Assembly: GCA_016841245.1 (NCBI GenBank)
Contig: JAENZN010000001.1
Location: forward strand, 307,446 to 371,445
DNA from: Syntrophomonas sp.
GTDB lineage: Bacteria; Bacillota; Syntrophomonadia; Syntrophomonadales; Syntrophomonadaceae
Reading direction: 5' to 3'
DNA length: 64,000 nt
The stretch's first letter is position 1. Every line of letters starts with the position of its first letter. This document shows positions 4,450 to 18,194 of this stretch, one piece after another. Both the position numbers and the translations under genes were made by a program. The notes beneath the pieces are model-generated. The model worked only from the letters and a program-made list of their open reading frames with translations. It made no database searches and was not told the DNA's origin.

Positions 4450-5658
4450 TCAAAAAATCTTTCCTTGAAAAGTTTTTTGCATAATGCTGTTAAAATTGTT
4501 CTCCATCTCGGTAAGACTTTTTTTTTTCAATTCTCTTTGTTTTTCGGCTGCCTGGACTATTTCGGCAAACTTGTTTTGAAGGTCTAGTGGAGGAAGAATA
4601 ACTTGTAAGCTCTTTAATCCATTGGTATTAATATTATAATTTCCTGCGGTTGTTTTACTTTCCTTTTTTAATTTAACCCTATAACTTGGGTAAGAGAACA
4701 TGTAACACAGATAAGTTAGATTCACTTCTTCTTGGGAGTCAATACGTACTCGTATTAAATATGAAGCATAAACACTCTTTACATCTAAATCATATATTGC
4801 ACATCTGCCGATATAGTCAGGATTACCATTAGAACGCACAAATAATAAATCCCCACTTTCAAGCAATAATTTTGACACCTCCTCCTTATCTATAACAATA
4901 TATTTTAAGTCAGTTAAGTCAATTCTACGTGAAGTTATATTAGGTATTCTTAGCACTGGTATACTAGATTTGTTTGGATTTTCAATAGCTTTTTGGTTTG
5001 TTCCGTACTTGAAGTCACATGCTATTTGTCCTAATAGCCTCACCCTCCATCCCTTCGGATTCTTGACCGGGTCTCCGAACATGTCTATGAATACGCTTTG
5101 CAGGAAATCATCCAGGAGTTCTATCTGCTTTTTTCTTATATCGATTAGTTCCTGGGCCTTGTCCAGCACATGAGCAATTTTCTTCTGGGCTTCCAGTGGG
5201 GGGAGGGGGATTTCAGTATCATTTAAATAATCATTTAGTTTTAAGTTGATTATTCCAGTTGTCTTATTTTGATATTTTAATACTCTGCCTGTATAGTGAA
5301 GATACAACATTAGGTATAAACAATATTTAGGGAACATTGATGGATTTGGTCTCAAGATGGAAGTAAAATTACTACATAGGTATGTACCCTCGCTAATATC
5401 AAAAAAAACCACTCGGCCAACGGGTTGATTGGGACTTCCACCTGATTTTTCTATAATAATATCTCCATATCGTAGTTTTTTCTCGTTAATCTTTTTCGTC
5501 TGAATATCTCTTAAAACAATGCCTGCCTCTATGTTTAGTTTACCTATATTAGTAAAATTAGTACTTCTTATTACTCCTATACCTGTATTTTGATTTGGTT
5601 CTATTCCCCATTCACCTGAAATTGGTTTTGCAAATAAATCTGATAATTTATACATCAT
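4450..5658 (-). CDS. hsdS: Type I restriction-modification specificity subunit
   Basis: The 402-aa S subunit recognises the bipartite DNA target and assembles with HsdM and HsdR. It has the classic two-fold layout. A first target-recognition domain (about 1-150) is followed by a conserved helical repeat starting PLPPLEAQKKIAHVLD and running through LLDDFLQSVF. A second target-recognition domain (about 200-345) is followed by the second helical repeat starting ILPPLDLQNKFAEIV and ending GKIF. Both halves look intact. The start overlaps the end of hsdM by 11 nt, indicating translational coupling. The target sequence cannot be read from the protein. Confidence 0.95.
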   Translation of the reverse strand: MMYKLSDLFAKPISGEWGIEPNQNTGIGVIRSTNFTNIGKLNIEAGIVLRDIQTKKINEKKLRYGDIIIEKSGGSPNQPVGRVVFFDISEGTYLCSNFTSILRPNPSMFPKYCLYLMLYLHYTGRVLKYQNKTTGIINLKLNDYLNDTEIPLPPLEAQKKIAHVLDKAQELIDIRKKQIELLDDFLQSVFIDMFGDPVKNPKGWRVRLLGQIACDFKYGTNQKAIENPNKSSIPVLRIPNITSRRIDLTDLKYIVIDKEEVSKLLLESGDLLFVRSNGNPDYIGRCAIYDLDVKSVYASYLIRVRIDSQEEVNLTYLCYMFSYPSYRVKLKKESKTTAGNYNINTNGLKSLQVILPPLDLQNKFAEIVQAAEKQRELKKKSLTEMENNFNSIMQKTFQGKIF

Positions 5659-7114
5659 TTTCTATTAAAAGCCTTTCTAAATCCTTTAAGCCACCAATGA
5701 TTTCAGTTTCTAACTCTAGAATCTCACTTATTATTGCTTTAGGCGATTCATATTCCACCTCATCGTACTCTATCTCTTTATAACGATTTATTGATAAATC
5801 ATACCCATTCTTAACTATCTCATCTTTAGGGACAAAGAAAGATTGTTCTATTCTCTTACGATTTTCTTCCTCAGACAAGTTGTTAAATCTGTTAATAATA
5901 TCAGATATATCATCGGCATCTATTTTGTTTCGCTTGTCATCCAGGGAATAGCCGTCGGCTTTCATGTCATAGAACCAGACGTTATCAGTTCCCCCGGCTC
6001 CGGTTTTGGTAAATATCATTATTGCTGTGGAAACTCCGGCATAAGGTTTGAATACCCCGCTGGGCATGGAAATGATTGCATCCAGTTTATGATTTTCGAT
6101 TATTTCTTTCCTTATTTCTTTATGGGCATTGGAACTGCCGAACAGTACACCATCAGGAACTATGGAAGCGCATCTGCCGCCCGGTTTAAGCATTCTTAAA
6201 AATAGTCCTAAAAAGAGCAGTTCGGTTTTCTTGGTTTTAGCAACCTTCAATAAATTGGGTGAAACTGCTTCATAATCAAGTGAACCTTTAAAAGGCGGGT
6301 TGGTCATTATCAGAGTGTATTTATTAATATCCGTGTTCTGCTCAGAGAGCGAATCCTTGTAAGAAATATTGGGATTTTCCACCCCATGCAGCATCATATT
6401 CATTGCTCCGATTCTGAGCATAGTCCGGTCCATATCATAGCCATTAAACATCTTATTATTGAAATGTTCTTTGGCTTCTCTATCCAAGAACAGATCTTCA
6501 TGATTATCCCGGAGGTACTCCCCTGCTATAAACAGAAATCCGGCTGATCCTGCAGCCGGGTCTGCAATAATATCTTCCGGGGTAGGTTTCATAAGCTCAA
6601 CCATCATTTTTATGATGTGTCGGGGAGTCCTGAACTGCCCATTAGTACCTGCAGTTGAAACTTTGGATAGCATATATTCATAAATATCACCATTTGAGTC
6701 CCGATCAGCCAGCGGCAGTTCCGACAAGCCGGTTACTATCTTCTCCAGCATCTGGGGGGTGGGAATCATAAATATAGCATCATCCATGTATTTTGAATAA
6801 GCAGAATCTTTGCCGTTATGCAGGGTTTTAATAAATGGAAAGACTTCTTCTGCTACAATTTTATACATCCTGGCCGCTTCCATATCCTTGAATTGGCGCC
6901 ATTTATAATACTGTTTATCAGCAGGAAATATGCTGTGGTGTTCTACTCCCAGAACAATAGAGTCATTCTGTTTTTTATCATCTATTTCATCCAGTGTTCT
7001 GATAAATAATAAATATGTAATCTGTTCGATAACCGATAAGGGATTAGTTATGCCCCCAGTCCAGAATGTTTCCCATATCCTGTCGATCTTGTTTTTCAAC
7101 TCTCCCGTAATCAT
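5648..7114 (-). CDS. hsdM: Type I restriction-modification methyltransferase subunit
   Basis: This 488-aa adenine-N6 methyltransferase subunit protects host DNA at the site chosen by HsdS. Its N-terminal helical domain (HsdM_N, about 1-125) starts KNKIDRIWETFWTGG. AdoMet-binding motif I is DPAAGSAGFLF (about 185-195). The catalytic motif IV is NPPF (about 271). It is of the N6-adenine gamma class. The ATG at 7114 is chosen because GGAGG lies six bases upstream, which removes an eight-residue extension starting MSCCKEDV. It overlaps hsdS by 11 nt. Intact. Confidence 0.95.
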   Translation of the reverse strand: MITGELKNKIDRIWETFWTGGITNPLSVIEQITYLLFIRTLDEIDDKKQNDSIVLGVEHHSIFPADKQYYKWRQFKDMEAARMYKIVAEEVFPFIKTLHNGKDSAYSKYMDDAIFMIPTPQMLEKIVTGLSELPLADRDSNGDIYEYMLSKVSTAGTNGQFRTPRHIIKMMVELMKPTPEDIIADPAAGSAGFLFIAGEYLRDNHEDLFLDREAKEHFNNKMFNGYDMDRTMLRIGAMNMMLHGVENPNISYKDSLSEQNTDINKYTLIMTNPPFKGSLDYEAVSPNLLKVAKTKKTELLFLGLFLRMLKPGGRCASIVPDGVLFGSSNAHKEIRKEIIENHKLDAIISMPSGVFKPYAGVSTAIMIFTKTGAGGTDNVWFYDMKADGYSLDDKRNKIDADDISDIINRFNNLSEEENRKRIEQSFFVPKDEIVKNGYDLSINRYKEIEYDEVEYESPKAIISEILELETEIIGGLKDLERLLIENDV

Positions 7115-7240
7115 TACATCCTCCTTGCAGCAGCTCATTCTAATAAAGTGTTCAAGTCCTTAATGATCGGTTTTTCATTAAGTCTGCATTATTTAAATGC
7201 CGTCATTATCCATTTTATCCTCATAATATCTGATCACTTT

Positions 7241-7411
7241 TCAACCTTGAACCCAGTGCCCAAAATATCTACAGGCCCGCTCTGGATCATTCCCCGTAAT
7301 ACAACAACCGCCCAGTACAATTTCACCACGTTCCGCTGCTTCAAATGCCTCATAAGCAGGATATCCATATATTTTAGTCGACCTGCAGGCAGGAAATTTA
7401 ATCTTGGCCAT
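7241..7411 (-). CDS. 56-aa small protein, degenerate zinc-ribbon type
   Basis: A short frame on the minus strand starts at ATG 7411 with GGAGG eleven bases upstream and ends at TGA 7241. The product begins MAKIKFPACRSTKIYGYPAY and contains a GEIVLGGCC turn and a CRYFGHW ending. Small proteins with this arrangement normally carry two CxxC zinc knuckles around a GYP...GGC middle. Here the N-terminal knuckle keeps only Cys9 and the C-terminal one only Cys47, with Cys36-Cys37 in the middle, so zinc binding is doubtful. It lies between hsdM and the Mrr-like gene on the same strand, as part of the defence cluster. No function is known. It may be a decaying gene or a divergent member. Confidence 0.55.
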   Translation of the reverse strand: MAKIKFPACRSTKIYGYPAYEAFEAAERGEIVLGGCCITGNDPERACRYFGHWVQG

Positions 7412-7569
7412 AATTCAAATAACCTCCAGTTGTAAGAGCAGTAAAACGTTTTTAAAATATCAGTCAATTAAAGACTGGATTATTTTCCCATTCATATTTT
7501 TTACCTTAAACCTAAATAAGGCAGCATTATTTAGCTACTATAACAGCCCGCTGATTTTTACCAGTATCT

Positions 7570-8481
7570 CTACTCATCAATAAAATAATCGGAGTCAATC
7601 TTCATAATATCGTAGCTGGCCACTTTCGTAACCCCTACTCCGAAGTCGGTCATCAACTCAGCCATCCTTTCTCCATCTATAAGAATAATTTTGCTATCAA
7701 TTTTATCAACGAAATCAACTGCTTCTCTGGAGAAATTTGATGTAGTTATGAATATTCCTTTCTTCGCACTCTTGCCCATTAAGGCCCCAGCAAATTTTTG
7801 AATATCAGGTCTTCCTACCGTTCCTTGCCACCTTTTTGCCTGTATGTAAATTATGTCGAGCCCCAGGCGATCTTCTTTAATAATGCCATCTATTCCTTCG
7901 TCCCCGCTCTTACCTACGGCTTCTCCTGCATCCTTCCTGGAACCGCCATAACCCATAGCCACCAGAAGTTCAACCACCATCTTTTCAAAAAATTCCGGCG
8001 AGCACTGTTTAACAGTTTCTATCAATTCTGCAGCAAGTTCTTTTCTCAGTTGTTGATAGGATAGCTCCAGCTTTTCTTCTGGATTTAAGGTTTCAATTAC
8101 CTCAGGTTTATCATTGCCATTACCATTTATATCTTTTTGGGGATTGATAAACTCTCTAAACTCCTGATATTTTTTGAGCAGGTTCACATCAATCTTATCT
8201 GGTTTTTCTTTTAATAAGTCCCTGCCTCGCTCAGTTATTATAAAGTGTGCTCTTTTGGTATTCTCAATAACCACAGCCTTTTTTAGGTATGTGCGTGCCC
8301 ATCCAACCCTATTCCGGAATACAGCCTGTTTTCCACTGGGTAACAGTTCCTTTAGCTCCTCTTCAGTGAGATTAAAGTGTTCAGCAAGATGGTCCATAGC
8401 TTCTCTTAATGAATGTTCTTGTCCATCAGATGCAAATGCTAAAAACGGCAGCATTATACTCTGGTAATCCGGTATACTCAT
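7570..8481 (-). CDS. mrr: Mrr-type restriction endonuclease
   Basis: A 303-aa protein with the two-domain layout of Mrr enzymes, which cleave modified DNA. The N-terminal winged-helix Mrr_N domain (about 1-90) begins MSIPDYQSIMLPFLAF. The C-terminal Mrr catalytic domain (about 150-290) carries GDEGIDGII (about 191-199) and IYIQAKRW (about 212-219), the D...QxK variant of the PD-(D/E)xK nuclease. The ATG at 8481 is preferred over an upstream in-frame codon at 8538 because AAGGGAG lies just upstream and homologous proteins begin there. It is first in the minus-strand defence cluster, about 160 bp upstream of the small zinc-ribbon-like gene. Activity against methylated DNA is inferred from the family. 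Confidence 0.9.
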   Translation of the reverse strand: MSIPDYQSIMLPFLAFASDGQEHSLREAMDHLAEHFNLTEEELKELLPSGKQAVFRNRVGWARTYLKKAVVIENTKRAHFIITERGRDLLKEKPDKIDVNLLKKYQEFREFINPQKDINGNGNDKPEVIETLNPEEKLELSYQQLRKELAAELIETVKQCSPEFFEKMVVELLVAMGYGGSRKDAGEAVGKSGDEGIDGIIKEDRLGLDIIYIQAKRWQGTVGRPDIQKFAGALMGKSAKKGIFITTSNFSREAVDFVDKIDSKIILIDGERMAELMTDFGVGVTKVASYDIMKIDSDYFIDE

Positions 8482-8827
8482 ATCTTTTTCTCCCTTATAA
8501 CTTATTGAATACACTAATATCCATTTACACCCACCCATTTACATGTTCTGCTATATTACGTTATTTTCCTTCATGAGATAACTCTAATCATAGAGCTTCT
8601 TGTTATACACGAGGGGCTGATTTCGCTTAATAGATTCTACAATCGCTATCTAAAAGCTTTTCTATATTATCCAAATACAAGAAGAAAGAATGTTTTAATG
8701 TCTCAATACATTGTTTTTCATCTCCATAGCCAGAGATTTACATCAAGCTTTTAAAAACCAAGTCGCGCATTTTATCTGGAGATATTTTTCTGAATATTTT
8801 CCAGCAGAAAGGAAAATTTTTCTTTTC

Positions 8828-8860
8828 GATTAATTTTCTCGAATTCGATTTTGTGTGTCC
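8828..8860. repeat. Dispersed 33-nt repeat, copy 1
   Basis: 30 of 33 bases are identical to 18040-18072, same orientation. Both copies begin GATTAATTTTCTCGAATT and both are intergenic. This copy runs directly into the large palindrome that follows; the other does not. Nature unknown. Confidence 0.6.
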
Positions 8861-8901
8861 TGGAAACACATATGCCCTATATGTGTTTCCAGGACACACA
8901 A
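8851..8901. repeat. Perfect palindrome with 23-bp arms
   Basis: Bases 8851-8873 and 8879-8901 are exact inverse complements around the 5-nt loop GCCCT. The core is GGAAACACATAT...ATATGTGTTTCC. It could fold as a cruciform or RNA hairpin. On the plus strand an A/T-rich tract with T runs follows, but there is no plus-strand gene upstream to terminate. Possible roles are an operator, an element end or a recombination site. Confidence 0.7.
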
Positions 8902-9026: not shown

Positions 9027-9279
9027 TATTATTTAAGCGGCTCGTTTACGTTTTTGAAAAGTCATATAGGGGGTTTAAAAGAATATAACAGGATGACAGT
9101 CTTGATATCTGGCAGGGTTTATGAGGGCCATTGACTCGTGGGCTATTAAATGACACAGGAGCTTGCGCCTCGGTTGTCGCCAGCGGCAGTGATGAAAATG
9201 ATGTTGATGTGAGAAGTTTATTCATGAGTCTATACCAATTCACTCGATATTGGTAAAGGCTTAACGGTGATCTTGTGGA

Positions 9280-10005
9280 CTAATTAATTATGCCATTGCG
9301 GAATCCTATAGCCACTGCATGTGAACGATTTATGGCCCCTAATTTCTTAAGAATTGAGGAACAATAATCTCGAACAGTAAGCTGATTGATCCCGAGGCGA
9401 TCGGCTATCTCGTGAATCGTCAAACCGTACGCCAATTCTTGCATAACCTGCAATTCACGGGGTGATAAAGTTATCTCAGATTCGGGTGCCAGTGATAGAC
9501 GAGGAAAAGCTGCATGTTTGCAGGATAAGATGCCCAGTTCATTGCCAATATTCTGCAAAAGATCGAATAGTAGCGAATTATGTTTAATGGTGTTATGGCA
9601 TCCTGAGTCGAGAATTAAAAAACCGTTGACGTTGTGAGCGGTTATCAGCGGTTGAATAATAAGTGATCTAAGTGAAAATATTTGAATGTACTGGTGAGGT
9701 ATTAGTTTTTCAACTAATGCTTCTTTTAGTAAAATGGTACGCCGGCCCATAGCGGCCATGAAAAAGGCTTGACACTCCCTGACATCTTCTCTTATTGATA
9801 TGATGTCATTTTGGTTAAAACCACAGCCGATGGTTCCTTGTTTTATTCGCTTTTCTGCGTCGTATGATATAAAACCTGCTCGTTCAAAGGGAAAATGCTG
9901 TCTCATTCCCTCTATCGCCATCTCAAGAAACTCGGGTCCTTCTGCTGTGTTAAACAATTCTTTCTTATAAAGACAATACTCCTTCCGCCAATCTATTCTT
10001 TCCAT
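9280..10005 (-). CDS. LuxR-type transcriptional regulator
   Basis: A 241-aa DNA-binding regulator. The C-terminal LuxR/GerE helix-turn-helix (about 175-240) is clear: LSPRELQVMQELAYGLTIHE, then IADRLGINQLTVRDYCSSIL and KKLGA. The N-terminal part (about 15-160) has the spacing and hydrophobic pattern of a GAF-like sensor (FERAGFISYD, LIIQPLI, GFLILDSG) but no ligand can be named. It has no phosphoacceptor receiver domain. It is transcribed away from the alcohol dehydrogenase fusion across 575 bp, so it may control that gene. Its own end is marked by a terminator at 8996-9026. Confidence 0.85.
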   Translation of the reverse strand: MERIDWRKEYCLYKKELFNTAEGPEFLEMAIEGMRQHFPFERAGFISYDAEKRIKQGTIGCGFNQNDIISIREDVRECQAFFMAAMGRRTILLKEALVEKLIPHQYIQIFSLRSLIIQPLITAHNVNGFLILDSGCHNTIKHNSLLFDLLQNIGNELGILSCKHAAFPRLSLAPESEITLSPRELQVMQELAYGLTIHEIADRLGINQLTVRDYCSSILKKLGAINRSHAVAIGFRNGIIN

Positions 10006-10129
10006 AAATGACCATCCTTTACATACTGTTTTCTGATCGATTTTAAAATAGAATAGTATTGCGAATAATTATACATATATTTTTCCACATATTGGACCTT
10101 AAATTATACCCCCAAGAATCCTCATTGTC

Positions 10130-10151
10130 AATTACTGATATTTCAGTGATT
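10130..10151. promoter_or_regulatory. 22-nt near-palindrome, possible operator
   Basis: Arms AATTACTGA and TCAGTGATT with a TATT centre. It lies between the divergent LuxR-type and dehydrogenase genes and differs in sequence from the GC-rich sites nearer the dehydrogenase. A LuxR-type binding site is possible but untested. Confidence 0.35.
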
Positions 10152-10356
10152 GAATATTTTTTATAATACCCTATCCTTGAAATATAAGATTTTTTTTTAG
10201 GGAAGCTGCATTTTCCAAATGAAAGAATTTTATTGCGCTATACTCCAATATTATCAAGGACTTGAAGTTCTTACTTTTTGCAAAACTTGAGCTATTGTTG
10301 CCAATTCGATCCTGACATCCAGTCTTTCTATTGCATTCAAATTTTTTCTTTCATTT

Positions 10357-10502
10357 TAGCCGGTTAGCCGACGGACATAACAGCCTCAGTTGTTTTTTCA
10401 GGGATATTTATCACCACATTCAGTCGGCCGACCGACCTATATAGCATCCTCAGTTATTCTATTAAGGGTATTTATCACTATATTCAGTCGGCCAGCCGTT
10501 CG
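10357..10502. promoter_or_regulatory. Three GC-rich operator-like sites at 64-bp spacing
   Basis: Sites start at 10361 (CGGTTAGCCGACGG), 10425 (CGGCCGACCGACC) and 10489 (CGGCCAGCCGTTCG). All fit a palindromic consensus near GTCGGCYRRCCGAC and stand out in AT-rich DNA. The intervening DNA is also repeated: 10384-10429 and 10448-10493 align with few changes, so the array arose by tandem duplication of a 64-bp unit. 64 bp is about six helical turns, which would place the sites on the same DNA face. A related half-site pair precedes the TetR-type gene at 17163-17180. Confidence 0.6.
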
Positions 10503-10580
10503 AGTTTTCCGAGAGGGGGTATGCAAGTATTGACCAGGTTTCAGGTTATTTGACAATTCAAGAATGGAGGAGGTTTAAGA

Positions 10581-13247
10581 ATGGATCATTACAAATTGTT
10601 TATCAATGGTGAGTTTGTCGATGCAAAGGATGGAAAGGTGTATGAGACTATTGATCCGGGAAACGAACAGGTAATCGCAACGGTGGCCCAGGCCGGATTG
10701 GCCGATGCAGAAGCTGCCATCATGGCCGCCCGCCGTTCTTTCGACAGCGGAGTATGGAGCGGTTTAACTCCGGCGGCCCGTGCGCAAAAGGTCTATGATT
10801 TTGCTGATCAGATCAATACTATGGCCATGCGTCTGGCCGTTACGGAATCCATGGATGCCGGCCAGGTCATCAATTTTTCCAAGGTGACGCCCCTGGGCTT
10901 CGGTGCCAATATGATGAAGGATCTGGCTAATTATGCTTCCTTCAAATATCCCTGGGAGGAGGAAATAAAAGTTCAAGGCAATCCCTTTGATTTTGGACGC
11001 GACTACATTCGCCGCGAACCGGTCGGCGTCTGCGTAGGCATTATCCCCTGGAATTTTCCCATGGTCATGGCCTTCTGGAAGATCGGCCAGGCCATCATTA
11101 TGGGCAATTCAATCGTCTTGAAGCCGGCCTCGGTGACGCCGCTTACGGCCCTCATCATCGCGGAGGCTTCGAAAATTGCGGGCATTCCCAATGGTGTCAT
11201 CAATGTGATTCCCGGCCCGGGCGGATCGCTGGGCAAGGTTCTCTGCACCCATCCAGAAGTCGATAAGATCTCCTTTACCGGCAGTACCGAGGTGGGGCGG
11301 GAAATCATGCAGATGGCCTCCGGGACGGTCAAAAAGGTAACCCTCGAACTGGGAGGCAAATCAGCCAATATCGTCCTGGATGACTGCGATATGGATCATG
11401 CCATAGATGTAGCGGCTTTCGGAACATTCTTCCACATGGGTCAGGTTTGTGAATCAGGCACCCGGGTATTAGTTCACTCGAAGATCTACGATGAATTCGT
11501 GGAAAAATTCAAAAAACGGGCCGAGGCCCTGCGTGTCGGCTATCAGCTTCTCGGAACCACCCACCAGGGGCCTCTGGTCAGCCGTGAGCAATTGGCCACG
11601 GTTGACGGATATGTCCAAGTGGGTAAGAAAGAAGGCGCTACCCTGATCACCGGCGGTAAACGCGTAGAAGTCCAGGGAATCAAGGGCGGTTTCTATTATG
11701 CGCCCACCGTATTTGCGGATGTGAAAAACGACATGCGCATTGCCCAGGAAGAGATCTTCGGCCCGGTTGTTTCCCTTATAAAATTTGACAGCGACGAAGA
11801 GGCAGTGGCCATCGCCAACAAATCCATCTATGGGTTAGGCGGAGGTGTCCTTTCCAACAATACCGCCCGGGCCGAACGCATTGCCCGGCAGGTCCGTACA
11901 GGAACTATGTGGATCAACAACTACCATTACTTCGGCCACTTCTGTCCTTTCGGCGGCTACAAGCAGTCCGGCGTCGGGCGTGAACTCAGCCACATCGGTT
12001 TGTCAGAATATACGCAGACTAAACGGATTCATGTTAGCAGTTTTGCCCACGCCGAATCGAATTACACCATTTCGGCTCTCATTTCCGATAATAAATCGCT
12101 TCCTAAATATATCTACAATTGCCCCACCAAGATCAACGCCGGTCACGGGTCACTGGCTTCCGTAGCCAAGGAAGTGGTTGACCTGGGCTGCAGCCGGGCC
12201 CTTATCTTGACAGATCCCGGCATCATCAAGGCTGGTCTTGCCCAGCTGGCTCAGGATGCCCTGGCGGACTTCTGCGTCGGCGTTTTCAGTGATATTCCCC
12301 AGGATACGAACCTGGAAACAGTTGATGCCGCCGTTGAAATGGGCCGTCAATTAAAGGCCGATTGCATCGTAAGTGTAGGCGGCGGAAGCGTCATCGACAC
12401 GGCCAAGGCAGTCTGCACTACCCTGAAGAACGGGGGGTGCTGCAATGATAATATCTCCTGGTCCAGACTCCATGAACCCCAAACACCTCATATAGTTATT
12501 CCGACCACCTCGGGAACCGGAAGCGAGGTAACCTGGGCTGCGGTTATCAATAACAAAGTCGCCGGACGCAAGTCCTATATTATTGAATCCTGGCTGGCAC
12601 CGAATGTAGCTATCCTCGATCCGCGCTTCACCATGACCCTGCCTCCGCGACTGACAGCCGGTACGGCCATGGATGCCATGACCCATTCCATTGAGGCACT
12701 GACCACCATCACCACCAATCCTATTTGCGACGGCCTTGCCTTGCATGCTATTCGTTTGATTAAGGAAAACCTTCCAATTGCCGTCAAGGATGGCAAGAAC
12801 GAAGCGGCACGCTTAAATCTGGCGGCGGCCTCGACGATGGCGGGGTGTGCTTTCACCATTTCCTTTGTTGCCCTGGCTCATTCCATGGCCCATACTCTTG
12901 GTCATCTCTATGGTGTGCCCCATGGCGAGGCCTGCGGCCTGGTGCTCCCCAAGGTGATGCGCTTCAATGTCGACCATGCCACGGATAAGCTGGCTTTGAT
13001 CGCTCAGTCACTGGGAGTCAATACCTTCGGTATGGATAAGCGCGATGCCGCGTTCGCGGCTGCCGATGAAATCGAAAAGTTAATGAAGGAGGTTGGCCAT
13101 CCGCTTACCCTGCGTGAGGTCGGTGTTCCGGAAGACGGTCTTATGGAATGCAGCCTGCATGCCATGGGCGACGCGGTTACCCTTTACAATGCACGTCCTG
13201 TGGCCAGCCCGGATGAAATCCTCGAACTCTATAAACAGGTTTACTAG
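10581..13247 (+). CDS. Aldehyde dehydrogenase-alcohol dehydrogenase fusion
   Basis: An 888-aa two-enzyme fusion. Residues about 1-490 are a classical NAD(P)-dependent aldehyde dehydrogenase with general-base E256 in LELGGKSA and catalytic C290 in GQVCESGTRV. This is the type that makes carboxylic acids, not the CoA-acylating domain of AdhE. Residues about 505-888 are an iron-type alcohol dehydrogenase with cofactor motif GGGSVIDTAK and metal ligands D698, H702, H767 and H781. The overall order therefore mimics AdhE but with a different first domain, so the expected net reaction is alcohol to aldehyde to acid with two NADH, or the reverse of the first step. Codon use is G/C-ending and base composition clearly higher in G+C than in flanking genes, suggesting transfer. 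The start has GGAGGAGG nine bases upstream. The substrate is unknown. Confidence 0.9.
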   Translation: MDHYKLFINGEFVDAKDGKVYETIDPGNEQVIATVAQAGLADAEAAIMAARRSFDSGVWSGLTPAARAQKVYDFADQINTMAMRLAVTESMDAGQVINFSKVTPLGFGANMMKDLANYASFKYPWEEEIKVQGNPFDFGRDYIRREPVGVCVGIIPWNFPMVMAFWKIGQAIIMGNSIVLKPASVTPLTALIIAEASKIAGIPNGVINVIPGPGGSLGKVLCTHPEVDKISFTGSTEVGREIMQMASGTVKKVTLELGGKSANIVLDDCDMDHAIDVAAFGTFFHMGQVCESGTRVLVHSKIYDEFVEKFKKRAEALRVGYQLLGTTHQGPLVSREQLATVDGYVQVGKKEGATLITGGKRVEVQGIKGGFYYAPTVFADVKNDMRIAQEEIFGPVVSLIKFDSDEEAVAIANKSIYGLGGGVLSNNTARAERIARQVRTGTMWINNYHYFGHFCPFGGYKQSGVGRELSHIGLSEYTQTKRIHVSSFAHAESNYTISALISDNKSLPKYIYNCPTKINAGHGSLASVAKEVVDLGCSRALILTDPGIIKAGLAQLAQDALADFCVGVFSDIPQDTNLETVDAAVEMGRQLKADCIVSVGGGSVIDTAKAVCTTLKNGGCCNDNISWSRLHEPQTPHIVIPTTSGTGSEVTWAAVINNKVAGRKSYIIESWLAPNVAILDPRFTMTLPPRLTAGTAMDAMTHSIEALTTITTNPICDGLALHAIRLIKENLPIAVKDGKNEAARLNLAAASTMAGCAFTISFVALAHSMAHTLGHLYGVPHGEACGLVLPKVMRFNVDHATDKLALIAQSLGVNTFGMDKRDAAFAAADEIEKLMKEVGHPLTLREVGVPEDGLMECSLHAMGDAVTLYNARPVASPDEILELYKQVY

Positions 13248-13264
13248 GCGTCCAATAAAATTGC

Positions 13265-13292
13265 AGGGGCAGGGGGATCAACCCTTGTCCCT
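13265..13292 (+). terminator. Stem-loop after the dehydrogenase fusion
   Basis: AGGGGCAGGGG (13265-13275) pairs with CCCTTGTCCCT (13282-13292), 11 bp including two G-T pairs, six-base loop. There is no T tract after it, so it is either a weak terminator or an mRNA 3' stabiliser. It lies 18 bp after the stop codon. Confidence 0.4.
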
Positions 13293-13448
13293 TACATCTA
13301 TTAATGTGCGGCTTTGGACAGGAAGGGATGATGCTAACATAAAGCGGTGATCCAAAGACAAATAAAACGGACTTTGCTCCCTGCTAAATGAGGGACTAAT
13401 GCCTCCACGTGTAAAAACACTTAATACTCAATGGGAGAGGTTCTGGAA

Positions 13449-14312
13449 ATGCACATACTGGTTGTATATAAAACACAAGATCAAGCCAAAAAACCAGCCA
13501 TCAAGCTAACGCGGCATCTGGCGGCAATTGAGGGTGTGGAAGCAGAATGTATTGCCGTAAATGAACTGCTAAGCCATCGGAGGCCGGATGTGGACTTAGT
13601 ATATGTACTGGGTGGGGATGGTACCATTTTAAGGGTTGTCCATTGTCTATTCGATCAGGTTGTTCCAATATTAGGAGTTAATCTTGGGAAAATCGGTTTC
13701 CTGGCCAGCATCGAACTGGGTGATTTATTTAGTTCCGCAGATCAGGTCCTTAGCGGTGACTTCCAGATGGAAAACCGAATAATGCTTGATATCCTGGTAT
13801 TAAGAAATGGGCAGGTTGTGCTATCCGATACTGCCCTTAATGAAGTAATCATTAAGAGCCAGGTCCCCCAAACTATCAACATTAGCATAATTAAAGACGG
13901 AAGATTTTACTCCGAAATTGAAGGCGATGGGCTCATTTGTTCCACCCCAACCGGATCAACGGGTTATTCATTTTCAGCAGGTGGGCCGATTATTGAAGGG
14001 CAGGTTTCAGCACTGAGCATTACGCCGATTTGCTCATTATTATCTATTTCTCGGGCTCAAATTGTCAATTCTGACTGTAGATTAGTGTTTGTTTATGATT
14101 CTGTTCATGACGCCAGAGTTTCCATAGATGGAGAAGAGAAAATTGCTCTTTTTCAGGGAGATCAGATCTGCGTTCAGAAATCTTCACAAATAGCCCGCTT
14201 TGTTCAGATGCAAGTGATCAGTTCGTCCGAGAAGATGCTGCACAAAGCCAATTTGAGGTTCAGTAAAACAACCTCTAACCGTCCCCATAGGAAGTCCATC
14301 ATTCCCAAATGA
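13449..14312 (+). CDS. nadK: NAD kinase
   Basis: The 287-aa enzyme phosphorylates NAD+ to NADP+. Diagnostic motifs are present: GGDGT with the catalytic aspartate (55-59), NE (131-132) and PTGSTGYSFSAGGP (167-180). The protein is otherwise a normal-length ATP-NAD kinase. ATG 13449 is chosen because GGGAGAGG lies just upstream; an in-frame ATG at 13431 overlaps that site and would add six residues. It stands between the dehydrogenase fusion and nfnAB. This fits a role in keeping the NADP pool for the transhydrogenase, although a housekeeping role is equally possible. Confidence 0.93.
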   Translation: MHILVVYKTQDQAKKPAIKLTRHLAAIEGVEAECIAVNELLSHRRPDVDLVYVLGGDGTILRVVHCLFDQVVPILGVNLGKIGFLASIELGDLFSSADQVLSGDFQMENRIMLDILVLRNGQVVLSDTALNEVIIKSQVPQTINISIIKDGRFYSEIEGDGLICSTPTGSTGYSFSAGGPIIEGQVSALSITPICSLLSISRAQIVNSDCRLVFVYDSVHDARVSIDGEEKIALFQGDQICVQKSSQIARFVQMQVISSSEKMLHKANLRFSKTTSNRPHRKSIIPK

Positions 14313-14426
14313 TTTAAAGCCGTTAAGAAGTGATCAGTTTTAAGGACCGAACTGCTTATTGCTTTCGCTTGTCTGGTTTAAACAAAAATCATTAATAAAT
14401 TAGAAAATTTAAGGAGGATGCATGCC

Positions 14427-15281
14427 TTGAAGCAAACAGAAAAGTATCGGATTCAACGAAAAGCTTGCCTGGGGCCAGGCTTGAAGTTGATGGATATCTG
14501 GGCTCCAGAGATAGCGGCCAAAGCCAAACCGGGACATTTTATTATCCTGCGTACTGATGAAAAAGGTGAACGGATTCCTTTAACCATTGCTGACCTAAAC
14601 CAGGAACAAGGGCTGGTCACCATCATCTTCCAGGAAGTGGGTCGAAGCACCGATGACCTGGGCAGGATGGAGGAGGGTGATTACTTGGAGGACTTTGTCG
14701 GACCTCTGGGCAGGGATTCTGAAATTGATAATTTTGGCACTGTAGTTTGCATAGGCGGGGGAGTGGGAACAGCTCCTATTTATCCTATCACGCGCGCCTT
14801 ATATCTAAGGGCCAACCGGGTGATTAGCATTATCGGGGCCAGAAATGTCGATCAATTAATCTTAGAGGAAGAAATGCGGAAAGTCAGTCATGAACTTTTT
14901 GTGGTCAGCGATGATGGCAGCATTGGAGAAAAAGGACTGGTCACCGCACCCTTGTATAAGATATTGGAAGAGGAGAAAGTGGACCGGGTAGTGGCAATCG
15001 GTCCCCTGGCAATGATGAAAGCGGTCAGCGAGGCAACCCGAACTTTCGCAGTACCCACCATCGTTTCCCTGAACCCCATCATGGTGGACGGCACTGGCAT
15101 GTGCGGCGGCTGCCGGGTGGTAGTTGGGGGCCAGACTCGGTTTGCCTGTGTTGATGGGCCGGAATTCGATGGGCATCAGGTAGATTGGGATAAGGCCCGG
15201 CAGCGGGCGCGCATGTTCCTTCCCCAGGAAAAATCGGCCCGGGAAGCCATCGGAGGTGAATGCACATGCCGGAAAAAATAA
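14427..15281 (+). CDS. nfnA: NfnA, NADH-dependent ferredoxin:NADP+ oxidoreductase small subunit
   Basis: The 284-aa flavoprotein is homologous to dihydroorotate dehydrogenase electron-transfer subunits and sulfide dehydrogenase alpha subunits. It shows the FAD/NAD reductase fold (RIPLTIAD; GGGVGTAPIYPI) and a C-terminal [2Fe-2S] site (GTGMCGGCRVVV then FACVDGPEFDG). With NfnB it couples exergonic and endergonic electron transfers between NADH, reduced ferredoxin and NADP+. The Shine-Dalgarno AAGGAGG (14411-14417) touches the ATG at 14418 directly, so the in-frame TTG at 14427, nine bases downstream of it, is the more likely start. It overlaps nfnB by 16 nt. Confidence 0.92.
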   Translation: MKQTEKYRIQRKACLGPGLKLMDIWAPEIAAKAKPGHFIILRTDEKGERIPLTIADLNQEQGLVTIIFQEVGRSTDDLGRMEEGDYLEDFVGPLGRDSEIDNFGTVVCIGGGVGTAPIYPITRALYLRANRVISIIGARNVDQLILEEEMRKVSHELFVVSDDGSIGEKGLVTAPLYKILEEEKVDRVVAIGPLAMMKAVSEATRTFAVPTIVSLNPIMVDGTGMCGGCRVVVGGQTRFACVDGPEFDGHQVDWDKARQRARMFLPQEKSAREAIGGECTCRKK

Positions 15282-16663
15282 ATTATGTTCGTGAAAAAAT
15301 GCCTGCCCAGGACCCGGCAATACGGGTGACAAATTTTAACGAAGTGGCTCTGGGTTATGATGCAGAGACCGCTATGAAGGAAGCTTCACGCTGTCTGGCC
15401 TGTAAAAGGGCTCCCTGCAAAGATGGCTGCCCGGTGGGAATTGACATTCCCGACTTTATAAAGCAGATAAAAGAAGGGAATTTCAGTGGGGCTATTGCCA
15501 CTATAAAAGAAAAAAACAGTCTGCCAGCTATTTGCGGACGGGTTTGCCCGCAGGAGAGCCAGTGTGAGAAATACTGCATATTGAGTAAAAAAGGCGATGC
15601 AGTAGGAATCGGGCGTCTGGAGAGATTTGCCGCCGATTATGAAATGAGCCAGGGCGAAACAAAGATAAAGAAACCGGCATCTCCCAGCGGTCGGAAAGTA
15701 GCCATCGTTGGCTCCGGGCCTTCCGGTCTGACGGCCGCCGCTGACCTGTGCTTGCTGGGGCATGATGTGATCCTTTTTGAAGCCCTGCATACCCCAGGTG
15801 GAGTACTGGTTTACGGTATTCCAGAGTTCCGTCTGCCCAAGGACATTGTGGCCCGGGAAATTGAGACCATTGAAAAAATGGGGGTTGAGATCCGTACCAA
15901 TATGGTAATCGGGAAAATTTACACCCTGGATGAACTATTGAACTCAGATTATGACGCTATTTTCATAGGAACCGGAGCCGGGCTTCCTTACTTCATGAAC
16001 ATTCCAGGAGAAAACCTGAACGGGGTGTATTCGGCCAATGAATTCCTGACCCGGGCCAATCTCATGAAGGCCTATCTGTTTCCCGAGCATATCACCCCCA
16101 TCTATGTGGGACAAAGGGTGGCGGTTATCGGGGGAGGCAATGTGGCTATGGATGCTGCCCGTACCGCCCTGCGGCTGGGCGCTAAAGAATCCTATATCGT
16201 CTACCGGCGAACCGACAGAGAAATGCCGGCCCGCCATGAAGAGGTGGAGCACGCCTATGAAGAAGGTGTGCAGTTCCATTTTCTCGCTTCACCCACCGGT
16301 ATTGAAGGTGATGAGCAGGGTTGGGTCAAGGGGCTTAACTGCCTGCGCTATGAGTTGGGCGAACCGGATGCCAGCGGGCGTCGGAGTCCGGTGCCCATAG
16401 AAAGATCGGATTTCTTCATGCCCATGGATACTGTGATCATGGCCATCGGCCAGGGGCCTAATCCCCTGGTGCCAGCCACGACACCCGATCTGGAAACCAA
16501 CCGCTGGGGAAATATCGTAGCTGATGAAGCATCGGGCCGCACTTCCAAGACAGCGGTTTTTGCCGGGGGCGATGTAGTCACCGGTGCAGCCACTGTCATT
16601 CTGGCTATGGGCGCGGGCAAAAAAGCGGCCCAGGCCATTGATGAATATTTAAAAAGCCTGTAG
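15266..16663 (+). CDS. nfnB: NfnB, NADH-dependent ferredoxin:NADP+ oxidoreductase large subunit
   Basis: The 465-aa partner of NfnA belongs to the glutamate-synthase small-subunit family. The N-terminal cysteine clusters for two [4Fe-4S] centres are CLACKRAPCKDGCPVGIDIP and ICGRVCPQ...QCEKYC. FAD binding is VAIVGSGPSGLTAA (about 148-161) and NADPH binding is RVAVIGGGNVAMDAA (about 280-294). ATG 15266 is chosen since GGAGGTG lies eight bases upstream; ATG 15260 would be too close to it. The absence of a glutamate synthase large subunit and the presence of nfnA next door favour Nfn over GltD. Confidence 0.92.
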   Translation: MPEKINYVREKMPAQDPAIRVTNFNEVALGYDAETAMKEASRCLACKRAPCKDGCPVGIDIPDFIKQIKEGNFSGAIATIKEKNSLPAICGRVCPQESQCEKYCILSKKGDAVGIGRLERFAADYEMSQGETKIKKPASPSGRKVAIVGSGPSGLTAAADLCLLGHDVILFEALHTPGGVLVYGIPEFRLPKDIVAREIETIEKMGVEIRTNMVIGKIYTLDELLNSDYDAIFIGTGAGLPYFMNIPGENLNGVYSANEFLTRANLMKAYLFPEHITPIYVGQRVAVIGGGNVAMDAARTALRLGAKESYIVYRRTDREMPARHEEVEHAYEEGVQFHFLASPTGIEGDEQGWVKGLNCLRYELGEPDASGRRSPVPIERSDFFMPMDTVIMAIGQGPNPLVPATTPDLETNRWGNIVADEASGRTSKTAVFAGGDVVTGAATVILAMGAGKKAAQAIDEYLKSL

Positions 16664-16678
16664 AGTTTGCCGATAATT

Positions 16679-16798
16679 TTGACCATCAACAGTTGCAGTA
16701 TCTGCGAATTCTGTTGGGAAAGCTGTGCCAAAGATGCTATTTTGCTGTTTGAACAATGGCGGGCACCAGCGACTGTACTTAATAAACGCACCTGTTAA
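16679..16798 (+). CDS. 39-aa ferredoxin-like peptide (candidate)
   Basis: Directly after nfnB and in the same frame, an open frame encodes TINSCSICEFCWESCAKDAI and then about 20 residues before TAA at 16796. The CxxCxxCxxxC spacing matches a [4Fe-4S] site, although the usual proline after the last cysteine is alanine. Possible starts are TTG 16667 or TTG 16679, neither with a convincing ribosome binding site. It may be a tiny iron-sulfur peptide, a remnant of a ferredoxin or a lost C-terminal part of the upstream gene. It is too short to be sure. Confidence 0.35.
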   Translation: MTINSCSICEFCWESCAKDAILLFEQWRAPATVLNKRTC

Positions 16799-17196
16799 TA
16801 TCCCGATGGTGCGGAAATAGATGGATCTATTTTGGAGCAGTAAGATTTATGAAAACAACAGAAAGCAATATTTGATTATAGACAACTCGTACTGAAATGG
16901 GAACATATCCAAACCCAATACTGCCTGCCGCTAGTTGCATTCCCAATAGCGACATATCTATTGAATTAGATGCTTGAGGATACGGTGTTCCCAGCAGTAA
17001 TAGTGTTATATCTATGGATGTTTTTGCTTATTGCATCAACTACCAATTTATTTGGCAGTAGAAATTCTAAATCAATCCATTAAACGAGGGATTGGAAGAA
17101 CCTATCGAGGGTCAAACCAAAATTGCAGATTTTTTTTACATATGCTACTCTTATAAGAAGCAATCGGCCCATTGGTCGGTAAACATAGGAGCGTAC
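16799..17196. other. Intergenic region before the TetR-type gene
   Basis: No gene or repeat recognised in 16799-17160. An in-frame upward extension of the TetR frame to 17092 lacks a ribosome binding site and is not used. The last 35 bp hold the operator-like half-site pair. Confidence 0.4.
17163..17181. promoter_or_regulatory. Operator-like half-sites in the TetR gene leader
   Basis: ATCGGCC and GGTCGGT face each other across CATT, 17 bp before the start codon. The half-sites resemble those of the triple array in front of the dehydrogenase fusion (TCGGCC, GACCGA), but the spacing differs. This suggests autoregulation by the TetR-type protein and possibly joint control of the fusion. Confidence 0.4.
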
Positions 17197-17778
17197 ATGT
17201 CGTTGAATGAAAAAACCAGCCCAGGTCGTATAAATAAACGACAAATCATTCTTGATGCAGCCACCAAACTCATGATGGAGAAGGGTATAGAGCAGACCAC
17301 TCTTGGTGATATTGCGGAGGAGTCAGGTCTGAGCAAGGGGACCCTTTATTACTATTATCCTTCCAAAGCCGACCTGGTTTATGATGTTACGATGAGGCAT
17401 TTCAAGGTTGTCACAACTGATATCATGAATTATATTATCGATGCTACAAATAGCGGAAAAGCTAATCAAGAGATTAGCCGCCGTGTTATTAATAGCGTAA
17501 TAGGAGAATATACCCGCTCCAAGCTGCACTTATACCTCCTCCAGGAAGCAGTTTTAAATAATGAAGCTCTTAAAGTACGGTTTCAGGAAACCTACCGGGA
17601 ATGGAGAAGTATTTGTTATGTATGGGCGACCGGTTTACTCTCGGAAGAGGATCCCAGATCCAAACCCTTGTCATTTATTTTGCTGGCTATTCTTGATGGA
17701 TTTGTAACGCAAAGTATTATTGGAGCCGAACATCTGGATATTGATGAAATAGCAAATTGCATGAGTTTGTTATTTTAA
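17197..17778 (+). CDS. TetR/AcrR-type transcriptional regulator
   Basis: A 193-aa repressor-type protein. The N-terminal helix-turn-helix (about 10-60) is typical: RQIILDAATKLMMEKG, TLGDIAEESGLSKGTLYYYY and PSKADLVYDV. The C-terminal ligand-binding helices (about 70-193) do not reveal a ligand. ATG 17197 follows AGGAG at a good distance; homologous proteins start at a comparable place. It is monocistronic, downstream of nfnAB on the same strand with a 400-bp gap, and has an operator-like sequence in its leader. Some TetR members of this shape respond to acyl-CoA, but nothing in the sequence proves that. Confidence 0.88.
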   Translation: MSLNEKTSPGRINKRQIILDAATKLMMEKGIEQTTLGDIAEESGLSKGTLYYYYPSKADLVYDVTMRHFKVVTTDIMNYIIDATNSGKANQEISRRVINSVIGEYTRSKLHLYLLQEAVLNNEALKVRFQETYREWRSICYVWATGLLSEEDPRSKPLSFILLAILDGFVTQSIIGAEHLDIDEIANCMSLLF

Positions 17779-18194
17779 AATATTATTGCCAGCTCAATCT
17801 TCACATGTCATTTTTATCACAGAACCAGGAATCCTGGATATCAGCCCATGTTCATATGTATCAGTTCTTAGGGGACGTTACTCGGATTTTAATCCCGACA
17901 ATCTTAAATCCGGAATTGAGAAGGCCTCCTGGAATTACCCCACCACTAACAAGATTTATAAGGAAGAGTGTTCAGCCATCTCATTGTAGGTCCGGTTCTC
18001 ATTTAATACACTGCTGGGTCTATTGAATGCTAATATTCAGATTAATTTTCTCGAATTTGATTTTATGTGCCCTTCTTGCCTTTGCGTTATGCGTTTGATA
18101 AATTACAAATAAGCAAAGGCTCTCTTTTTTGTGCATTGATTCAGAGGAAATTGTTTTTTCTACTGATATACTTTATTTGTCGGGAGGTGATTGC
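17779..18194. other. Intergenic region with repeat copy
   Basis: A 67-codon plus-strand frame (17786-17989) lacks a ribosome binding site and a recognisable product; I do not call it. A 13-nt palindrome CCAGGAATCCTGG (17824-17836 approx.) and the second copy of the 33-nt repeat are the only structures noticed. Confidence 0.4.
18040..18072. repeat. Dispersed 33-nt repeat, copy 2
   Basis: 30 of 33 bases are identical to 8828-8860 in the same orientation. It lies about 120 bp upstream of the AraC-type gene and lacks the long palindrome seen beside copy 1. Confidence 0.6.

Follow-up and report, generated by a model that had tools for sequence, protein, structure and literature searches.

The window analysed here, a stretch of 64,000 nucleotides from a Syntrophomonas sp. 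genome, carries an intact gene, bdhE (10581–13247, + strand), which encodes a fused aldehyde dehydrogenase (ALDH) and alcohol dehydrogenase (ADH) of 888 amino acids and which, judged by its sequence, belongs to the BdhE family. The new observations are that this gene leads a row containing a NAD kinase (NADK) and NfnAB behind three operator-like palindromes spaced 64 bp apart, and that an unfused version of the row is found elsewhere in the same genome; neither the NADK–NfnAB context nor the palindromes are mentioned in the available portion of the BdhE paper (PMC12454647). We consider it reasonably probable that the whole is best explained by an acid-forming BdhE of cross-phylum origin, in which alcohol or aldehyde oxidation is bundled with NADK and Nfn.

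The assignment to BdhE follows from a search of the PDB with phmmer, in which only one entry, 9LDL, matched the protein over its full length (residues 1–888 against 1–886, 1258 bits), the next matches being single ALDHs near 427 bits. The alignment with 9LDL is near-gapless, with 67% identity in the ALDH half and 60% in the ADH half. This entry is BdhE (bifunctional dehydrogenase E) of Halomonas eurihalina, for which Konno et al. (2025; PMC12454647) describe, in the part of the paper available, a cryo-EM structure, ring-shaped homotetramers, an origin of the ALDH-ADH fusion independent from that of AdhE, and a proposed channelling of the aldehyde from one subunit to the next, linking the ALDH site of one with the ADH site of the other. 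The preliminary description had presented the protein as an AdhE look-alike with a non-acylating ALDH, which is correct but not new, since the core idea of an independently fused look-alike was published in that work. The two proteins share domain order, length (888 and 886 residues) and catalytic and metal residues, and differ in that the present one has a Bacillota syntroph as host, an NADK/NfnAB/TetR gene row, and Ser184 where the Halomonas protein has Thr at the NAD/NADP-determining position. No BdhE-only inserts stood out in our reference set, the loop coordinates of PMC12454647 not being contained in the text compared.

The reading frame has an ATG start and no internal stops in the ORF list of the window, and Pfam places the ALDH domain at residues 12–482 (10614–12026, +; PF00171, Aldedh, 527 bits) and the Fe-ADH domain at residues 515–888 (12123–13244, +; PF00465 and PF25137, Fe-ADH and ADH_Fe_C, 146 and 174 bits), both domains also being covered by the residue table; the order is that of AdhE, as claimed earlier. 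A misassembly is excluded because the gene, at 99% protein identity, recurs beside the same neighbours in a second Syntrophomonas genome (G003, locus L032). Although domain order and general reaction type resemble those of E. coli AdhE, we rejected an assignment to AdhE: against the profile NCBIfam NF010378 the protein scores 292 bits where the cut-off is 951, its ALDH half is only 20% identical, and it contains the hydrolytic glutamate (E256) and oxyanion asparagine (N158) that AdhE, itself an independent fusion, is without. Nor did a profile search of the same genome find any full-length AdhE over the NF010378 cut-off, and this matches the exclusion pattern of the BdhE paper, which in the part available reports 47 BdhEs and no genome in which the two enzymes occur together.

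The residue set of a classical hydrolytic-type ALDH is complete in the window protein, comprising the oxyanion residue N158 (11052–11054, +; equivalent to ALDH2 Asn169), K181 (Lys192), the hydrolytic E256 within LELGGKSA (11346–11348, +; E268), C290 within GQVCESG (11448–11450, +; C302) and E391 (Glu399). Comparison with FucO, YiaY, EutG, AdhE and YqhD identifies D698, H702, H767 and H781 as iron ligands, H767 having been read from the sequence, so that the claim that catalytic residues and metal ligands are all kept holds. In the residue table, where nine BdhEs are compared with AdhE, EutE and the ALDHs of E. coli, equivalents of E256 and N158 are found in all nine BdhEs and also in BetB, GabD, PuuC, FeaB, AldA and AldB, whereas AdhE and EutE have no glutamate in the Glu268 column and a different aligned motif (PTTNP/PSTNP) in the asparagine column. 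Glu268 handles the water for thioester hydrolysis, according to the accessible part of a review (PMC8160307). Profile and identity comparisons go along with this: the best profile for the ALDH half is BADH (534 bits), the CoA-acylating MMSDH, whose cut-off is 448.5, giving 250 bits, and the half is 39% identical to BetB and 40% to AldB, within the 32–40% spanned by hydrolytic E. coli ALDHs, against 20% for AdhE and 17% for EutE. These results support, at the level of sequence, the earlier view that the first domain is a classical and not an acylating ALDH.

In the phylogenies both halves group with the rest of BdhE. The ALDH halves form a BdhE clade that includes 9LDL (support 100/100), and the ADH halves come together in 98% of the bootstrap trees, though with a branch support of 79/99, a common clade of BdhE with AdhE/EutG being rejected for this half (p-AU 0.004). 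A phylogeny of each half had been proposed earlier; the ALDH half falls in the BdhE clade, but its grouping with two acylating sequences was not rejected (p-AU 0.49), a result that is uninformative because the branches of the acylating sequences are very long.

For the window protein we infer an alcohol substrate, the oxidative direction and an acid product. The Fe-ADH half would oxidise a primary alcohol to the aldehyde, the ALDH half would oxidise the aldehyde via a thioester at Cys290, and water bound by Glu256 would release the thioester as free acid, which a CoA-transferase or ligase may then activate to acyl-CoA for beta-oxidation. In this way the enzyme would most likely work on alcohols or aldehydes in syntrophic growth. 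Genes that fit an activation of acid after BdhE are found at Desulfobacterota BdhE loci, namely an acetyl-CoA hydrolase/transferase (L035), an AMP-binding ligase (L033) and, beside an acyl-CoA dehydrogenase, a close look-alike of the L035 protein (L036), the latter assigned by N-terminal similarity and not by profile scan. The preliminary description had likewise proposed conversion of alcohol to acid with no CoA step, to which the catalytic residues conform but the assay of the Halomonas enzyme does not: for this sole assayed BdhE, the available text of PMC12454647 reports acetyl-CoA-dependent NADH oxidation, which counts against acid formation, both under the refuting condition named earlier and since a hydrolytic ALDH should not carry it out. 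The same text reports ethanol oxidation in a reaction mix with CoA. Together with the mutual exclusion of AdhE and BdhE among published genomes and in this one, these activities would favour a true AdhE substitute, whose classical ALDH fold takes CoA and interconverts alcohol and acyl-CoA in either direction. We regard this as rather unlikely, given that hydrolytic glutamate and oxyanion asparagine are kept across all BdhEs examined, that identity to acylating families is low, and that the CoA-activating genes beside Desulfobacterota BdhEs would be redundant. Moreover, the methods available from PMC12454647 describe no CoA-free reaction or product identification, the reported rates are lower than those of AdhE, and the word "acylating" is absent from its main text. 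In our view free acid would be a more likely product of BdhE than acyl-CoA.

The profile results also bring in a choline or betaine-aldehyde enzyme, that is GbsB and GbsA in one chain, acting towards glycine betaine or on another quaternary or amino aldehyde. GbsA/GbsB and BetB are among the nearest curated profiles for both halves, BADH being the best for the ALDH half and GbsB choline dehydrogenase the second for the ADH half, and the accessible text of PMC12454647 reports choline oxidation by the Halomonas protein. However, the window protein stays below the curated cut-offs (534 against 668.6 bits for TIGR01804, 273 against 550 for GbsB), AdhE was also active on choline in the same published assay, the genes are separate in those systems, and the immediate neighbours are redox and regulator genes with no betaine or choline transport gene seen among them; we thus hold this function to be improbable. 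Still less probable, to the point of being very unlikely, is a role in aldehyde detoxification, in which aldehyde would be reduced to alcohol and the ALDH half would be a side branch: the ADH domain of the published BdhE does reduce aldehyde (PMC12454647, available part), but competition would be expected from the hydrolytic ALDH fused to it, and the neighbouring genes suit electron disposal after oxidation.

Composition and distribution of homologues both bear on the origin of the gene. With a G+C content of 53.6%, bdhE has the highest GC3 among the 50 window ORFs compared (0.61, their mean being 0.39, sd 0.06), while its homologues range from 0.51 to 0.80. Of the named homologues from outside Syntrophomonas, the nearest six are 83–87% identical and none of them is from Bacillota; their MAGs carry the labels Desulfobacteraceae, Desulfobacterales, Syntrophobacteraceae, Syntrophaceae and, twice, Deltaproteobacteria. 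The fused gene occurs in two of 63 genomes of the order, seven others having an unfused in-frame pair at 39–42% identity, and in the ALDH phylogeny bdhE lies inside the Desulfobacterota-type set (support 100/99) with Halomonas outside. The suggestion of transfer, first made from composition, is thus upheld, and the compositional outlier together with the homologue distribution supports acquisition of bdhE from another phylum. Desulfobacterota-type bacteria would be the best donor candidates; the donor is not fixed because homologues were searched for by short peptide patterns derived from bdhE, a sample that does not extend to more distant BdhEs. Among other matches, those of Lonepinella and Campylobacteraceae covering both halves were separate genes with a stop between and not fusions, and a plasmid search gave only matches below 60% identity, the annotated top ones corresponding to separate genes lying next to each other. 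A clear inter-phylum transfer is in this way added to the small BdhE family.

In the unfused pairs of the order, ALDH and ADH lie side by side in one frame and are divided by a TAG stop, an arrangement not far from a fusion, which seven genomes have (L121–L126 and G075). In L121–L126 the ALDH is 42–46% identical to that of the window protein and sister to the BdhE ALDH in the tree (99/96), a related TetR being present at four loci and a similar operator-like box at two; unlike bdhE, however, these are two genes with an ordinary in-frame stop, and their ADH is only about 30% identical. Read-through of the stop, by pyrrolysine or otherwise, was rejected since the TAG stands at the gene boundary and the ADH has its own start codon; moreover, no PylS scored above cut-off.

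The neighbourhood of bdhE starts with a divergent LuxR-type regulator (9280–10005, −; GerE HTH, Pfam PF00196), which is kept beside bdhE in L032. Downstream and on the same strand as bdhE follow a NAD kinase with a GGDGT motif (13431–14312, +; Pfam NAD_kinase), an NfnA-like small subunit (14418–15281, +; FAD, 2Fe-2S; NCBIfam PRK06222, PDB 5JCA_S and 4YLF_A), an NfnB-like large subunit (15260–16663, +; 4Fe-4S, FAD; NCBIfam TIGR01316, PDB 4YLF_B and 5JCA_L) and a TetR-type regulator (17092–17778, +; Pfam TetR_N), whose likely start is an inner ATG near 17197. The NfnA-like and NfnB-like frames overlap by 22 nt, so the two subunits are encoded as a pair, and both have relatives among the solved NfnAB structures. 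The row headed by bdhE is a candidate operon, gaps of 184 nt between bdhE and the NADK gene and of 106 nt between the latter and nfnA meaning that co-transcription of the three is not proved. The genome (G000, 3.9 Mb; contigs C37, C24, C21, C28, C56 and C43) has five NAD-kinase-like genes, the one in the row included, and five NfnB-like genes 70–100% identical to that of the window, a number that looks high.

Upstream of bdhE, a pattern search of the window located three operator-like palindromes CGGYYRRCCG (10361–10370, 10425–10434 and 10489–10498), together spanning 10361–10498 and exactly 64 bp apart inside an imperfect 64-nt direct repeat, at 83–220 bp from the gene and nowhere else in the 64-kb window. 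The second Syntrophomonas genome keeps them too. This motif also stands upstream of the ALDH at L121 and L123 and upstream of the TetR gene at L123, and the window TetR is 36–47% identical to those beside the ALDH-ADH pairs (BLASTP against L121, L123, L124 and L126). A link between palindromes and TetR is only a lead, since L122, L124, L125 and L126 lack an exact match; the 260 bp that precede the Desulfobacterota genes hold no exact match either. The bdhE row may be under the LuxR-type regulator, the TetR-type regulator or both.

A comparable row exists unfused on contig C24 of the same genome (L119:3900–12841), in the order sigma-54 activator, ADH, ALDH, NADK, NfnA and NfnB, with NfnAB 77–87% identical to that of the window. 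In another genome (G012, L141) a C24-like ADH-ALDH-NADK row is followed by what looks like a NuoE/NuoF/formate-dehydrogenase-like set, for which the large-subunit type was profile-scanned in L121 and the remaining genes were assigned from sequence appearance. The recurrence of rows joining ADH/ALDH, NADK and electron-transfer genes suggests that in this bacterial family the oxidation of alcohols or aldehydes comes together with a supply of NADP and an outlet for electrons, NADK and Nfn possibly balancing NADH, NADPH and ferredoxin. No NADK or Nfn gene was present in any Desulfobacterota BdhE locus read.

As for cofactors, in the ADH half Asp545 aligns with an aspartate of FucO that goes with NAD preference, the NADPH enzyme YqhD having glycine there (residue table). 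In the ALDH half Ser184 (11130–11132, +), at the NAD/NADP-determining position, is like the residue of NADP-dependent GabD, and NADP+ may be used here, instead of the NAD assumed earlier for both steps, since this serine stands where NAD-preferring ALDHs often have glutamate, as BetB, PuuC, FeaB and AldA do. The absence of an acidic residue at this position allows NADP+ use without proving it (PMC8160307, accessible part), and the published BdhE assays used NAD(H) (PMC12454647, available part). A more specific but doubtful proposal is that of a hybrid operon, in which a foreign acid-forming BdhE would have joined a native TetR-operator system and native NADK/NfnAB, so that the ADH half would supply NADH and the ALDH half NADPH, and Nfn, running in reverse, would give the reduced ferredoxin that syntrophy requires for H2 or formate. 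If this were true, BdhE would be an alternative to AdhE that forms acid, at odds with the acetyl-CoA reading in the literature.

Comparison with the second genome fits a movement of the bdhE block as a unit. The stretch 9247–18073 is 96–97% identical to G003, whereas most compared flanks are at 85–93%, weaker in parts; the left neighbour of the block differs there, and a 300-nt segment to its left sits to its right in G003. A 34-nt direct repeat (91%; 8828–8861 and 18040–18073) flanks the block, for which no integrase or transposase was identified. Overlapping the direct repeat is an inverted repeat (8851–8901) whose 23-nt arms pair perfectly around a loop of 5 nt; weaker copies of it occur elsewhere in the genome and none in G001. 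Just left of the block (5648–8538) are genes that by sequence appearance alone resemble a type I restriction methylase and a restriction endonuclease.

Overall, the analysis exposes a conflict between the BdhE family, whose members keep the residues of acid-forming ALDHs, and the sole assay, that of the Halomonas enzyme in the available text of PMC12454647, which reported reduction of acetyl-CoA. Whether the product is acid or acyl-CoA decides if BdhE conserves or loses the energy of the thioester, which matters to a syntroph living near thermodynamic limits.
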